DNA of 64,000 nt from Dehalogenimonas formicexedens. GTDB taxonomy: Bacteria; Chloroflexota; Dehalococcoidia; Dehalococcoidales; Dehalococcoidaceae. The stretch spans positions 400,210 to 464,209 of the forward strand of contig NZ_CP018258.1 in assembly GCF_001953175.1 (NCBI RefSeq), given 5' to 3'. Positions 1,880-29,629 of the stretch are shown here, in pieces. Position numbers and translations under genes: made by a program. The notes beneath the pieces were generated by a model. It saw only the letters and a program-made list of their open reading frames with translations, was not told the DNA's origin and ran no database searches. Within the stretch, counting starts at the first letter, position 1. Every line of letters begins with the position of its first letter.

Positions 1880-2160
1880 AAAAGCCCTCGCCACTAGGGG
1901 CGAAGGCTCAAATACCTCGCGGTGCCACCCTGGTTCGATTCAAAAGCCTTAGGGCTAAAGAATCAATCTCTTGTCGGGTACGGTCTAAGACGATACCCTG
2001 GGCCGTTTAACGGCGCCCTTCCCGGCGAAGCCTACTCGAATCTCTTTCGGTCCGCAGCTCCCCAGTCCATTCAACCCCCGCGCAACTGCCGGCTCACACC
2101 TAACCCGGCTCTCTGAAGCCCGCCTGACGTTTACTCGTCTGGATCAACGCTTTTAAGTTG
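1880..2160 (-). promoter_or_regulatory. T-box leader with Trp specifier upstream of trpE
   Basis: Read on the minus strand. Stem I begins with an AGTA S-turn element, an AG bulge and a GC-rich distal stem, followed by a specifier-loop segment GAATGGAC whose TGG codon (2067-2069) is tryptophan. The conserved T-box sequence AGGGTGGCACCGCG is at 1918-1931. A terminator hairpin with a T run lies at about 1876-1908, directly before trpE. Known mechanism: uncharged tRNA pairs with the specifier and T-box and stabilises the antiterminator. Confidence 0.93.
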
Positions 2161-2280: not shown

Positions 2281-2852
2281 AATCGGGATTATGAAGATGA
2301 GACAACATTATGATTTTTGTCCGAAATGATTCTGCAGGCTACAATCTTTGTTGGATATGGAGCGCGCTGATGAATGAGAAAATCAAAACTTCAAAAACAA
2401 CCGCCGCCCGCTGGGAGCGAACTTACAAGACAAATCCGGTTGCCGGTTTGCCGTGGGAAGAAGGGGCGCCGTCGGACAACCTCATCGAACTGATCGAATC
2501 GGGGCAGGTACCACCCGGTCCGGTTCTCGATATCTGCACCGGCTCCGGAATCAACGCTATCTATCTGGCACAGCGGGGCTACGAGTGTCACGCGGTGGAC
2601 ATCTATCCGACGGCTATATCCATTGCCGGGGAAAAAGCGGCTAAAGCGGGCGTTGCCTGCGATTTCAATGTAGGGGATATCCTCGATCTGGCTTTCCCCG
2701 GAAACTTCTTCAACCTTGTTTTTGACCGTGGTTGTTTCCACAACTTCGCTCCGGGGCAGCGTTCAGCCTTCATAAACGAGGTTTACCGGGTATTGAAACC
2801 GGGAGGCCTTTACCAGCTTAATTCCTTGGCATCGTTCCATTTAGGTTGTTCC

Positions 2853-3170
2853 TCATATGGACAATTTCCCTATGACTAGGGATAAAAAGGATGTAAAGGC
2901 GGCTAGATAAAATCCAACCGATGCTATTCTTCTCTCATTTCTATTAGCTTCGTTCAACGTGTCGAGATAACCATTGAAATCTTCAACAAAATCTGTGATA
3001 GGTTGGTCAATATCTTGCCCCATAATTCGAACTTCAAAATGCATATCTTCGCGTTGGGGGCGAGGCGTCTGCCGAAAATGTTCAATCTTTTTACTAGACT
3101 TATTCCATTCATAGTAGCCAAGCACCACAAATACCAATCCTGTTGTCAGCCAAAGGAGTTCAATTGCCAT
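2853..3170 (-). CDS. Small membrane protein, IS passenger
   Basis: 105 residues. An N-terminal hydrophobic segment (about residues 3-20, LLWLTTGLVFVVLGYYEW) and a C-terminal one (about 87-102, VGFYLAAFTSFLSLVIG) flank a charged middle, so both ends are probably membrane-embedded. It starts three bases after the transposase stop with a strong GGGAGG site. I do not recognise a family. It may be cargo or an accessory factor of the IS. Confidence 0.65.
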   Translation of the reverse strand: MAIELLWLTTGLVFVVLGYYEWNKSSKKIEHFRQTPRPQREDMHFEVRIMGQDIDQPITDFVEDFNGYLDTLNEANRNERRIASVGFYLAAFTSFLSLVIGKLSI

Positions 3171-3173
3171 AAA

Positions 3174-4214
3174 TTACCTCCCCATGCCTATTTGTCGTCT
3201 CACTTCACGAGGGATTCTAGGCGTTAATCTCGGTAGCTTTGCTTTTACTTCAACAATCGAAATGCCAGCTTGGGTTAGGCGGCTTGTCTTTGGTGGCTTT
3301 CGAGTTTTCTTGAATGATTCATCAAGCTTGTATCGTCTGCGCGGAATGTCAGGTTCTGCGCGGTCTTTAAGATGTTCCTCTTTGGATATGGGCATCCGGC
3401 AGACATCGCCCCAATTCTTGATTGAGATATCAAGCCCAGCCATTTCAGCAGGTGTCTTGTTATGGAGTGCCTCATGCGGTCTGAAGTGGTTGTAATAGAC
3501 GGCAAAGCCATCGGTGAATGATATTAGAGTCTCAATATCCCGAAAGCCACGCATAACCTTTGTGCGGTCTTTCAGGGTGTTATGGAAACGTTCTATTTTA
3601 TTCGTGCTATCCTCTGCCACAAACGGGCGGCTCTGCCGATGTTCGGTGTCAGCCCCGAAAGCTAATTCGATTCCATCCACGTAAGCCCGATATTTATCGG
3701 TCAATACAACTTTAGGTTGTTTGCCTGCACGTTTAGCGGCGGCTTCCATCAGCATCTGCGCGTCTTTAGTTCCGCGAGTGAATGACGCCCTGGTTGCGAT
3801 TAAATAGCGGGTGTCTGAATCAATGATGTCCCAGAAAAATATCTTGCGCCCATCAACATCCATAAACGTTTCATCGGCGATCCAAGTGTCCCCAACTTTA
3901 GGGTGTTCATTCCGGTAATGTTCAACAGCTTGGTCTGTGTATTTGTTCACCCAGTTATAAAGAACATGCTTTGAGGCTTTGTACTGGTATTCTTGTTCAA
4001 GGAATTTGCTAATGTCGCCGTAGCTCATTCCGGTGTAAAACATGTTCAATGCGCTAGTAACATAATTCGGCGGCTTCTGCATATTGAACAAAGCTGAATC
4101 AGCTTTGAATTTCCGCTTGCAAGATGGACACCAGTAAAGCTGTGTCTCTTTGTATTTACCGAATTTTGAAACATGTTCAGATTGGCAGTATTTACAGGTG
4201 ATTCCGTTATTCAT
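3174..4214 (-). CDS. IS6/IS240-like DDE transposase
   Basis: 346 residues. N-terminal zinc ribbon (CKYCQSEH ... YWCPSCKRKF), a helical DNA-binding stretch, then an RNase H-fold catalytic core with Asp in WIADETFMDVDG, Asp in VVLTDKYRAY and Glu in STNKIERFHNTLKDR, the usual D-D-E order. A C-terminal basic extension of about 70 residues makes it longer than typical IS6 transposases (about 240). Its ATG overlaps the end of the upstream passenger gene. It appears intact, so the element may still move. Confidence 0.92.
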   Translation of the reverse strand: MNNGITCKYCQSEHVSKFGKYKETQLYWCPSCKRKFKADSALFNMQKPPNYVTSALNMFYTGMSYGDISKFLEQEYQYKASKHVLYNWVNKYTDQAVEHYRNEHPKVGDTWIADETFMDVDGRKIFFWDIIDSDTRYLIATRASFTRGTKDAQMLMEAAAKRAGKQPKVVLTDKYRAYVDGIELAFGADTEHRQSRPFVAEDSTNKIERFHNTLKDRTKVMRGFRDIETLISFTDGFAVYYNHFRPHEALHNKTPAEMAGLDISIKNWGDVCRMPISKEEHLKDRAEPDIPRRRYKLDESFKKTRKPPKTSRLTQAGISIVEVKAKLPRLTPRIPREVRRQIGMGR

Positions 4215-4576
4215 TTCATTTTTTCATCCATTTTCTCGACTAACTTATCGATGGACTCTACTAATTTTGTGATATTAGAATTATTGTCATCTAGTTTTTT
4301 ATTTATTTCATCAAGTTTTAATTTCGTTATCTTGCCTGAATTTCTATATAGTAAAAAAGCACAGGCTATTATTGTCCACAAAGCTACCGATGAAATTAAA
4401 CCTAAAATGTCTTTCAATGGGCCCTCCGTTGTAAGGGCAAAGGGAATAATAAACGGAAATATAATACCCGCGATAACAAATAGAATTTGAACGAGATTTT
4501 CCCATTTATCCCATTCCCGTTCGATTCGTTGTATTTGCCTGTCCAAATAATACTGAGGTTCTTTTTGGTCAGCCAT
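4211..4576 (-). CDS. Membrane protein with C-terminal coiled coil, IS passenger
   Basis: 121 residues. A charged N-terminus, two transmembrane segments (about residues 28-48 and 60-78), then a polar heptad-like tail rich in Lys, Leu and Asp (IDKLVEKMDEKMK). It overlaps the transposase start by four bases (ATGA) and is the first gene of the IS operon. No family recognised. Its position inside the inverted repeats shows it moves with the IS. Confidence 0.65.
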   Translation of the reverse strand: MADQKEPQYYLDRQIQRIEREWDKWENLVQILFVIAGIIFPFIIPFALTTEGPLKDILGLISSVALWTIIACAFLLYRNSGKITKLKLDEINKKLDDNNSNITKLVESIDKLVEKMDEKMK

Positions 4577-4858
4577 GCTACTAATCTCCTCTTGCTACTA
4601 TTGGCAAGAGGATACACCTTCGCGGTAAAGCACTCAACTAACATGGAACGATGCCAATTCCTTTAGTAAACGGGGGCATAATTGGGGCGGCCCGCCATAC
4701 GGTTTTTCTCCGGGTGACATACGCAAATTGTTCCACTCTTCATTCGAGATTCTCCGGATCAAGGAGATACCACTCGGCGAGGGAGAATCCCGCCAGTTTT
4801 TCCTATCGGCTTTGATGAAAAAGCCAATTGAATCACCCGCATGTCAGAAAATTAATCA

Positions 4859-4887
4859 TTGACATAAAACAACTGCATTGTTATAAT
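4859..4887 (+). promoter_or_regulatory. Consensus sigma70 promoter of the cobamide operon
   Basis: TTGACA (4859-4864), a 17-base spacer and TATAAT (4882-4887), a perfect match to both hexamers. The -35 box overlaps the stop codon of the broken methyltransferase gene. Transcription should start near 4894, just before the riboswitch. Confidence 0.85.
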
Positions 4888-4899
4888 TCTGAACAATTG

Positions 4900-5095
4900 A
4901 ATATCGCGTGAGTGGTGTCGGCGTCCCGATAGTATCGGGACTTAATTGGGAAACCCTGCGAAAATCAGGTGCGGTCCCGCCGCTGTGACCGGGGACGAAA
5001 CTTGGGATATGCCACTTTCCTGTTGAAACAGGAGGGGAAGGCCTCAAGGAGTAGGACGATCCGGGAGCCAGAAGACCTGCCGGCAATCAAAAACC
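4900..5095 (+). promoter_or_regulatory. Cobalamin riboswitch
   Basis: Shows the conserved core GGTGCGGTCCCGCCGCTGTG (4960s-4980s), the GGGAAGGC segment near 5035 and the B12 box AGCCAGAAGACCTGCC (5066-5081). It sits between a strong promoter and cobS. Two terminator-like hairpins follow, so control is probably by transcription termination when cobamide is bound. Confidence 0.95.
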
Positions 5096-5125
5096 CTCGA
5101 GGAAAAGGGCTTCATGGGAAATGGT

Positions 5126-5212
5126 AAATCCCTGAGCCGATGCTAACGGTTTAGGGATTTTTCTTTTTCCGGCGGAAATCCCTGAACTTAGCTTGAGTTT
5201 GGGGATTTTTTA
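5126..5212 (+). terminator. Two tandem terminators, riboswitch expression platform
   Basis: Two similar hairpins with T tracts, both built on AAATCCCTGA ... GGGATTTTT: the first at about 5126-5162, the second at about 5176-5211. They look like a duplicated terminator and leave only 16 bases before cobS. One or both are likely switched by the riboswitch. Confidence 0.8.
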
Positions 5213-28971: not shown

Positions 28972-29505
28972 ATGACTGAAAATAGAACAAATGTACAAAC
29001 AAATGGTTTAGAAGGTATTCCCAGCCCGCAACCCGAAACGCCAGAAACCGCTCTTCCTTATCACTCCCTCTCCGTTTACGGAGAGGGTCGGGGTGAGGTC
29101 GCGAAACGTGGCCGTGGCGCGCCGAAAGGCAACCTGAACGCCCGCCACCATGGCCTCCGTTCGCCCCGCATCATCGAAGCCCAGCGCAGGATATTAAAGG
29201 AAGAGACGGATTACGGCCGCCTTGACCGGGAGATACTGCTGGCTGTTTTTCAGACCGTGATGGTCAACTCCACCGGCGCCACCACCCACGTTGCCCTCCG
29301 CCTCCAGGCGCGCTTGGCACGGCTGGTGCGGATCAAGTACGGCATCCATCTGGATGATCTGGAAGCTCTGGAGAACGCCACCAGGCGGGTCGCCGTAGAC
29401 CTGCCGCTGACCAAAGAACTTGCCGCCAGGCTCGCCGCGGTTTCCAAGTCACCTCCGGGCGTACTGATAACTGACAACTGTAAACTGTCGACTGTAAACT
29501 GTTAA
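28972..29505 (+). CDS. Terminase small-subunit-like protein
   Basis: 177 residues. Contains KGNLNARHHGLRSPRIIEA, the same GNxxARxHG motif as the 24673 protein, then helices with conserved DREILLAVFQTV. Residues about 30-45 (YHSLSVYGEGRGEV) come from a G/C-rich inverted repeat that also occurs near 12800, and the last residues (CKLSTVNC) come from a run of ACTGT-type repeats, so both ends look repeat-derived. No ribosome site, consistent with a leaderless message. Confidence 0.65.
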   Translation: MTENRTNVQTNGLEGIPSPQPETPETALPYHSLSVYGEGRGEVAKRGRGAPKGNLNARHHGLRSPRIIEAQRRILKEETDYGRLDREILLAVFQTVMVNSTGATTHVALRLQARLARLVRIKYGIHLDDLEALENATRRVAVDLPLTKELAARLAAVSKSPPGVLITDNCKLSTVNC

Positions 29506-29629
29506 CTGTGAACTAGGTATTGTTTGATTTGAATGAATTGATCGAATTGTCCGCGCCAAACAACTCAATCGTGAGTTTCGCCAATTTCAATCGTGTTGTT
29601 TCGGTAACTATTGAAAATCGTGTACGGAC

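Follow-up and report, generated by a model that had tools for sequence, protein, structure and literature searches.

An IS6-like element with membrane passenger genes in Dehalogenimonas formicexedens and the apparent exchange of such cargo among its Dehalococcoidia relatives

The element and its insertion site

This work concerns an insertion sequence (IS) located within a 64,000-nucleotide stretch of the genome of Dehalogenimonas formicexedens, viz. positions 400,210-464,209 of a single-contig genome of 2,092,789 bp. This whole stretch is referred to as the window, and the coordinates given below are those of the window. In addition to a gene for an IS6-like transposase (tnp), the element contains two other genes, designated here as passengers A and B, both encoding predicted membrane proteins. 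The features of the element, and of the gene into which it has inserted, are as follows (aa, amino acids; TM, transmembrane).

2370..2827, plus strand: 5' part of an interrupted S-adenosylmethionine-dependent methyltransferase gene (Methyltransf_25, 5e-22)
2820..2827, no strand: left copy of the target-site duplication AATTCCTT
2828..4655, minus strand: whole mobile element, 1,828 bp, with inverted ends and an 8-bp target duplication; its genes are on the minus strand
2828..2848, no strand: terminal inverted repeat on the tnp 3' side, GGCATCGTTCCAT perfect, then a subterminal GGTTG motif
2853..3170, minus strand: passenger B, 105 aa, a TM segment at each end; GGGGAGG ahead of it, inside the 3' end of tnp
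3174..4214, minus strand: tnp, 346 aa, zinc ribbon C7/C10/C29/C32, with D114, D173, E208 and K215
4211..4576, minus strand: passenger A, 121 aa, two TM helices and a charged C-terminal helix; its stop overlaps the tnp start (ATGA)
4635..4655, no strand: terminal inverted repeat on the tnp 5' side, with a subterminal GTTGAG motif
4656..4663, no strand: right copy of the target-site duplication AATTCCTT
4664..4862, plus strand: 3' part of the interrupted methyltransferase gene

Boundaries were determined by scanning for 8-bp duplications adjoining ends with at least 11 of 14 matches, and around the window transposase the stretch 2828-4655 is the sole solution. The same rule was satisfied at 22 of the 39 real loci, as compared with 4 of 195 shuffled controls, and in view of this chance was rejected as the source of these boundaries. 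By a looser rule, four more elements (G188, G255, G009 and G009b) were included on the strength of 9-10 matches in 14 end positions, which are also attained in 31 of 195 shuffles. In total, 26 elements were delineated in this manner, 25 of them with a transposase. In the window element the ends (GGCATCGTTCCAT) match perfectly over 13/13 bp, the 23-bp terminal inverted repeat is 87% complementary, and the ends begin with GG and have a G at position 7, as is found in ends of the IS6 type. The element is intact and present in one copy in its own genome, and based on its GC content of 42.1% (33% in passenger A), as compared with 53.7% for the window, it is AT-richer than its surroundings.

When the flanks are joined, a methyltransferase frame of 218 aa is obtained, which extends from the ATG at 2370 to a stop ending at 4862. 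In the sister genome G005 (2,068,322 bp) this gene is uninterrupted, with 81% aa identity over the 5' part, and the G005 DNA spans the insertion junction in one alignment that is gapless there. A preliminary description of this locus, made from its sequence, had reported a simple insertion with an 8-bp duplication and perfect 13-bp ends into a gene that can be reconstructed, and all of this is borne out by the present results. The clean duplication and single copy would also be compatible with a resolved cointegrate.

The transposase and its family placement

The window transposase is of the DD34E type, with 34 residues between D173 and E208 and a K at +7, and it matches DDE_Tnp_IS240 (3.7e-21) and, in its zinc ribbon, IS1_IS1595_Zn (3.7e-9). 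The residues D114, D173, E208 and K215 are conserved in 24, 25, 25 and 22, respectively, of the 25 transposases of the delineated elements (inclusive of that from the window), and each of the zinc-binding cysteines is conserved in 22 of them. Against the curated IS6 model NF033587 an expect (E) value of 4.2e-36 was obtained, with scores of 124.6 and 126.1 bits for a cut-off of 125. By these comparisons the protein appears to be IS6-like, with a score at the borderline of this curated model.

Relatives of this transposase at E values of at most 1e-40 are present in 25 of 294 genomes of the class, its own genome counted. In a sample of the phylum, matches at 1e-30 were seen in 10 of 400 genomes, all from the same class, and three genomes of the same family (G001-G003) showed no match at 1e-20. 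Matches on plasmids came from 726 records, all below 60% identity and at 23-27% among the matches listed. Genome contigs gave one relative with 29% identity, in a metagenome-assembled genome (MAG) of Woesearchaeota, and no co-directional passenger was seen beside that transposase. No viral contig carrying passenger A or matching the transposase alignment was confirmed.

With canonical IS6/IS26 elements the window element shares DDE_Tnp_IS240, the DD34E-K residues, the 8-bp duplication and the short ends with GG and a G at position 7. It differs from them in that they are of about 800 bp and have one gene and no zinc ribbon; further, the G at position 7 is found at just 25 of the 52 ends in the group of the window element. 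Under the strict definition of IS6/IS26 by Harmer and Hall (about 800 bp, a short transposase and no extra N-terminal domain), an element of 1,828 bp with a 346-aa, zinc-ribbon transposase falls outside the family. In the available portions of that work, it is proposed that the long zinc-finger group, in which ISDsp3 of Dehalococcoides is a solo member, be separated from IS6/IS26, and clade VIII is described as having long transposases with a further N-terminal extension bearing a signal peptide (PMC6807381). The Clade VII/h elements of Clostridia (e.g. ISCpe7), compared by their description in the same portions, are similar in their transposases of the 340-aa class with an N-terminal zinc finger and in the 8-bp duplication, but their published lengths of 1,226-1,349 bp leave little room for passengers (PMC6807381).

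The nearest described kin of the window transposase, going by published descriptions, is probably ISDsp3 from Dehalococcoides BAV1, which has a length of 1,456 bp, a 319-aa transposase and an 8-bp duplication, and which is the single passenger-bearing family member named in the available part of a 2021 review of IS6 (PMC7986276, PMC6807381). Both have a long IS6-like transposase, an 8-bp duplication, a passenger gene and a host of the same family. However, as far as can be compared from these partial descriptions alone, the window element is longer, has two membrane passengers and has an intact zinc ribbon, which ISDsp3 reportedly does not. The IS6-like affiliation proposed in the preliminary description is upheld, with the qualification that the element belongs to a long, zinc-ribbon, ISDsp3-like branch with a borderline IS6 score. 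The element is of a known kind, viz. a passenger-bearing IS6-like element, with a new combination of traits; this combination was not found in print in the literature searched, which excluded subscription journals and ISfinder.

Within the branch, a sub-branch consisting of G188c, G188d and G238b (loci L057, L058 and L063) is without the zinc ribbon and has different N-termini. Further, in G255 (L054:3671-5209, minus strand) the zinc ribbon is preceded by two predicted TM segments within a single, fused transposase frame of 512 aa, and cargo and transposase may here be one protein.

Passengers A and B and their counterparts in relatives

The three genes form one block in the order A, tnp and B, in which tnp overlaps A by the sequence ATGA and B starts 3 nt after tnp. 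Both A and B lie between the element ends, as is required of a passenger-bearing IS (tIS). Each has two predicted TM segments and an open reading frame (ORF) longer than those in all 200 of 200 shuffles, which upholds the earlier claim that the two membrane genes are real. Homologues of passenger A are present in G229, G111 and G380. Between the window and G380 the identity at codon positions 1, 2 and 3 is 0.61, 0.65 and 0.36, respectively, and because the differences lie mostly at the third position, A was counted as coding. A profile of A detected three genomes among 393 of the class; among 156 genomes of the order it gave one further strong match, viz. G380, and three marginal matches with E of about 0.003 were also seen (G339, G387 and G393). 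The G380 homologue lies near a contig end, where neither element ends nor a duplication were found, and it counts neither way. No homologue of A was found on plasmids, and none of B, other than itself, in 294 genomes of the class. The content of the element as first described was therefore only partly found again in relatives: the pair of A and B was not refound, and A alone recurs in G229 and G111. That the two frames are chance ORFs in the spacer DNA of an ordinary IS is highly improbable, as the lack of B homologues would suit this idea, but the ORF lengths disfavour it, B has a good Shine-Dalgarno sequence, and A has homologues.

Membrane passengers are the rule in this Dehalococcoidia branch. 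Excluding slots of less than 200 bp and the transposase-less element of G111, the longest co-directional ORF in the slot upstream of tnp has a predicted TM segment in 14 of 17 cases (the window's included), as compared with 1.1 expected from shuffles, and in 15 of 17 cases it is longer than 99% of shuffles. On the opposite strand of these slots the corresponding values are 2/17 for length and 7/17 for TM segments, against 2.3 expected. For the slots downstream of tnp, the coding strand gave 5/18 for length and 8/18 for TM segments (1.1 expected), and the other strand 4/18 and 5/18 (2.3 expected). By a stricter count on all 38 transposases, those of undelineated elements included, a close co-directional ORF with a TM segment is present upstream in 19 of 37 assessable cases and downstream in 8 of 35. 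In view of the shuffles, an artefact of ORF calling was rejected as the source of this pattern. The preliminary description had regarded passengers on such an element as unusual, which holds for the published IS6 family, where ISDsp3 is the sole case named in the review portion available (PMC7986276), but not for this branch.

Cargo that is not membrane-bound also exists, viz. a GIY-YIG-like ORF in G131 and a DUF2283 gene in G131b. For family scans, 43 passenger proteins were picked by eye, one of them being the fusion frame of G255. In the PADLOC scan of these proteins, which included B, 12 families were matched, with one member each. Among the matches resembling defence candidates, a passenger of G114 matched PycTM (2e-5), a downstream protein of G238b matched PDC-S42 (5e-7), and the GIY-YIG-like protein of a relative matched PDC-S14 (4.6e-4).

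Apparent exchange of cargo and a cargo-only element

Several pairs of elements have very similar transposases (G131b/G131c, 95% identity; G188c/G188d, 93%; G007/G008, 87%; G103/G103b, 86%), and yet their passengers differ. For G131b/G131c and G103/G103b no match between the passengers was found by blastp at 0.01, and for those of G007/G008 the identity at the anchor is 37% over 56 aa. At the DNA level, the homology in G131b/G131c, G103/G103b, G007/G008 and G188c/G238b comprises tnp and blocks of 21-57 bp at one or both ends; the block covering tnp often takes in almost the whole gene, starting at the first codon and ending close to the last, and the remainder consists of pieces at chance level. 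In G188c/G188d the homologous block runs from the tnp start through to the element end. G007 and G008 are single-contig genomes, and the named members of these pairs, except G188d, have their own matching duplications. The ends of G188d show no duplication, as would be expected if its halves came from two insertions, or if the MAG is misassembled there. Because transposases which are 86-95% identical are accompanied by different passengers, it appears that cargo is exchanged between elements around a constant tnp.

The position of passenger A also varies: it precedes tnp in the window, follows it in G229 (58% identity between the transposases) and stands by itself in G111. The element in G111 has a length of 510 bp, with ends matching at 13/14 positions and the duplication TGCTCCAT at 8/8, and its cargo consists only of the A homologue; no related transposase was found in this genome, which is 66% complete. 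The G111 element has the plan of a mobile insertion cassette, in which cargo is flanked by IS ends but a transposase is lacking; other IS families are known to have such cassettes. No cassette of the IS6 type was seen in the results of the literature search. The ends of the G111 element resemble those of the G188c/G188d/G238b sub-branch. In another locus (L065:2150-5061), two different elements, G289 and G289b, are arranged in tandem, and the 8-bp sequence GCAAGAAG is found on both outer sides as well as at their junction, as if the second element had landed in the duplication of the first.

Predicted leader hairpin and inward promoter

Two further features are located between the end of the window element and passenger A.

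4609..4637, minus strand: predicted inward promoter, TTGAGT-17-TATCCT, with its -35 in the inverted repeat; a weak match by inspection, below the thresholds of consensus scans
4587..4612, minus strand: leader hairpin TCCTCTTGC/GCAAGAGGA; its 5' arm overlaps the -10 and its 3' arm covers the Shine-Dalgarno sequence (AGGAG) of passenger A

A hairpin between the element end and the first start codon is seen in most of the elements. Folding was compared with that of dinucleotide shuffles for 23 leaders (without G255 and G188), of which 4 were too short and 19 were used: z is below -2 in 13 of the 19, with a mean of -2.7, and it is -3.3 for the window leader. The mean probability that the Shine-Dalgarno sequence is unpaired is 0.22 in read-through RNA (19 values) and 0.53 in RNA from the predicted start (17 values, as two of the 19 leaders gave no usable value from this start), and in 11 leaders the accessibility gained from the predicted start exceeds 0.2. 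With a cruder test, in which the 3' arm of the stem is fixed and which was confined to the 18 of 24 leaders that were long enough, 12 of the 18 were positive, as compared with 4.0 expected. Many of the element ends contain a TTGAC-like motif at positions 18-23, which may serve as the inward -35.

Protection from transcription entering from outside is known for IS10 and IS50. Outside-in transcripts of the elements described here would, from this folding analysis, likewise be translationally silent, as the leader hairpin would hide the ribosome-binding site solely in read-through RNA. The arrangement is predicted to differ from that in IS10/IS50 in that the gene guarded first is a passenger, to which tnp is coupled. 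For the IS10/IS50 protection the literature search gave no paper showing it, and the available portion of a Tn5 paper contained no passage on it (PMC4265352). Small RNAs and leader structure are the subject of a paper on ISPpu9, as seen in the part available (PMC8450116).

Target preference beside host promoters

The following target rule was noticed after inspecting the flanks of the elements. Hexamers matching TTGACA at 5 or more of the 6 positions were recorded, with distances measured outward from the tnp-5' end. In 9 of the 26 elements such a hexamer starts 15 bp from this end, whereas other offsets on the same side account for 0-2 elements each, offset 15 on the tnp-3' side for 2 of 26, and random positions in the same loci have the hexamer in 984 of 200,000 cases (0.49%). 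A -10 with at least 4/6 matches lies 16-18 nt away from 7 of the 9 offset-15 hexamers, as compared with 14% of chance hexamers. For a held-out test, element ends were predicted from end sequence alone (leave-one-out accuracy 22/25 per side) at 13 loci outside the set used for the rule, all of them already fetched, and this yielded 11 usable tnp-5' and 11 usable tnp-3' sides. The offset-15 hexamer was present on 5 of the 11 tnp-5' sides (three with a proper -10) and on none of the 11 tnp-3' sides. Based on these two sets of counts, the insertion site of many members (examples are those at L046, L055, L057, L062, L064 and L073) lies 15 bp ahead of the -35 of a host promoter that is directed away from the element.

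The window copy and the five other delineated elements of its genus have no hexamer at offset 15, and the target rule is therefore lineage-dependent. An undelineated element of the same genus, G010, has a 5/6 hexamer at offset 15 with no fitting -10. The elements G131 and G131c (L046 and L064), which are from one genome, are flanked by identical duplications (GACGAGTA), and a few bases further on AGCTTGAC is found in both flanks, which on the face of the sequences is a shared target pattern.

Neighbouring features of the window

Downstream of the insertion lies a promoter of other genes.

4859..4887, plus strand: promoter of the downstream cobamide genes, perfect TTGACA-17-TATAAT, overlapping the methyltransferase stop codon

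Its distance from the element end is 204 bp, in agreement with the approximately 200 bases reported earlier, and with both its -35 and -10 intact, an alteration of this promoter by the insertion was considered and rejected. It is followed by a cobalamin riboswitch (4902-5098) and a terminator-like hairpin (5126-5160). Elsewhere in the window, a T-box leader (1893-2156, minus strand) precedes an ORF at 409-1875, named from its sequence as anthranilate-synthase-like, and a short AACTGTA-type tandem repeat array is found at 29469-29514.

Interpretation

The window element is best interpreted, with a probability of about 0.7, as an intact and probably autonomous IS6-like transposon of the ISDsp3-like Dehalococcoidia branch, whose membrane passengers are exchangeable cargo. 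In such an element, the inward promoter with its -35 in the inverted repeat would drive A, tnp and B. The hairpin would leave the first ribosome-binding site open in transcripts started inside the element and would hide it in those reading in from outside, so that a freshly landed copy would stay off under host transcription. The transposase would generate the 8-bp target duplications and the passengers would be translated together with it; they could be swapped between elements around a constant tnp, presumably by recombination through tnp itself, and could also travel alone between ends of the same kind.

It is unlikely, but deserves consideration, that the membrane proteins are instead transposition factors, viz. 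anchors by which the transposase is held or kept in check at the membrane, so that its activity is tuned. Their tight coupling to tnp, which in 15 of the 17 upstream slots they overlap or approach to within 26 nt, would be in accordance with this, as would the in-frame fusion of two predicted TM segments to the front of the G255 transposase (by inspection) and the clade VIII signal peptide noted in the accessible text of Harmer and Hall (PMC6807381). However, near-identical transposases operate with unrelated passengers, A can lie on either side of tnp (upstream in the window and downstream in G229), several elements start with tnp and have no upstream passenger, and G111 has A with no transposase.

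A rather improbable explanation is that the passengers are of no importance as proteins, being neutral stowaways or leader ORFs that act only by coupling the translation of tnp to a regulated start. It would account for the first ORF, whichever it is, bearing the hairpin-guarded start, and for the passenger families not being conserved between close elements; it does not account for TM segments far above the shuffled expectation, for the A protein sequence kept across four genomes with change biased to position 3, or for A being carried by a solo element. Of similarly low probability are addiction modules, in which the passengers would be membrane toxins or antitoxin-like proteins punishing loss of the element. 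Small proteins with two TM segments, predicted to be co-expressed with tnp, and a relative in which a DUF2283 gene lies beside a 76-aa ORF would suit such modules, but A and B have no toxin or antitoxin match in Pfam or NCBIfam and the gene pair is not consistent.

As to what the exchangeable cargo does, a membrane-anchored accessory function of the defence or exclusion kind, maintained by the element, is a tentative suggestion with somewhat less than an even chance. It is favoured here because the passenger families are diverse, membrane-anchored and replaceable, and because proteins of three relatives resemble models of defence candidates.

Several observations weigh against the interpretation of exchangeable cargo or its proposed function. 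Nothing convincing was found for A and B in Pfam, NCBIfam and PADLOC: the lowest E value of all was that of A to MAG1210_fam (6.5e-5), at 21.8 bits for a cut-off of 275, and the best PADLOC match of A, CARF_TM at 0.037, is at chance level. The AlphaFold model of A (predicted local distance difference test score of 69) consists of two helices with a best match in the PDB at E 0.66, and a profile of A gave one PDB match, at E 0.04, which was judged to be due to chance. The hints of defence come from only 2-3 of the 43 scanned proteins and are weak. In view of the residual identity of the G007/G008 passengers, part of the cargo turnover may be fast divergence; moreover, most of the relatives are from fragmented MAGs, in which the repeated tnp can cause chimaeric joins. 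Concerning the leader, the stem test is less striking than the folding z-scores, and the starts and promoters of the elements are predictions.

It is an evenly balanced proposition that these elements constitute a distinct lineage, in which a conserved vehicle, made up of the transposase and the leader switch, exchanges its membrane cargo, probably through tnp. In many members of such a lineage the element would lie 15 bp upstream of a host -35, with its own operon pointing away, in a safe landing place that is set by the same TTGAC motif as its own -35. Promoter-proximal targeting is known mainly from yeast retrotransposons, and these elements would provide a bacterial case for testing it. 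A whole branch with membrane cargo, cargo swapping and, in many members, a fixed landing beside host promoters would also provide a small model of how a minimal transposon gains, guards and trades its cargo, and in which the action of the cargo becomes testable.

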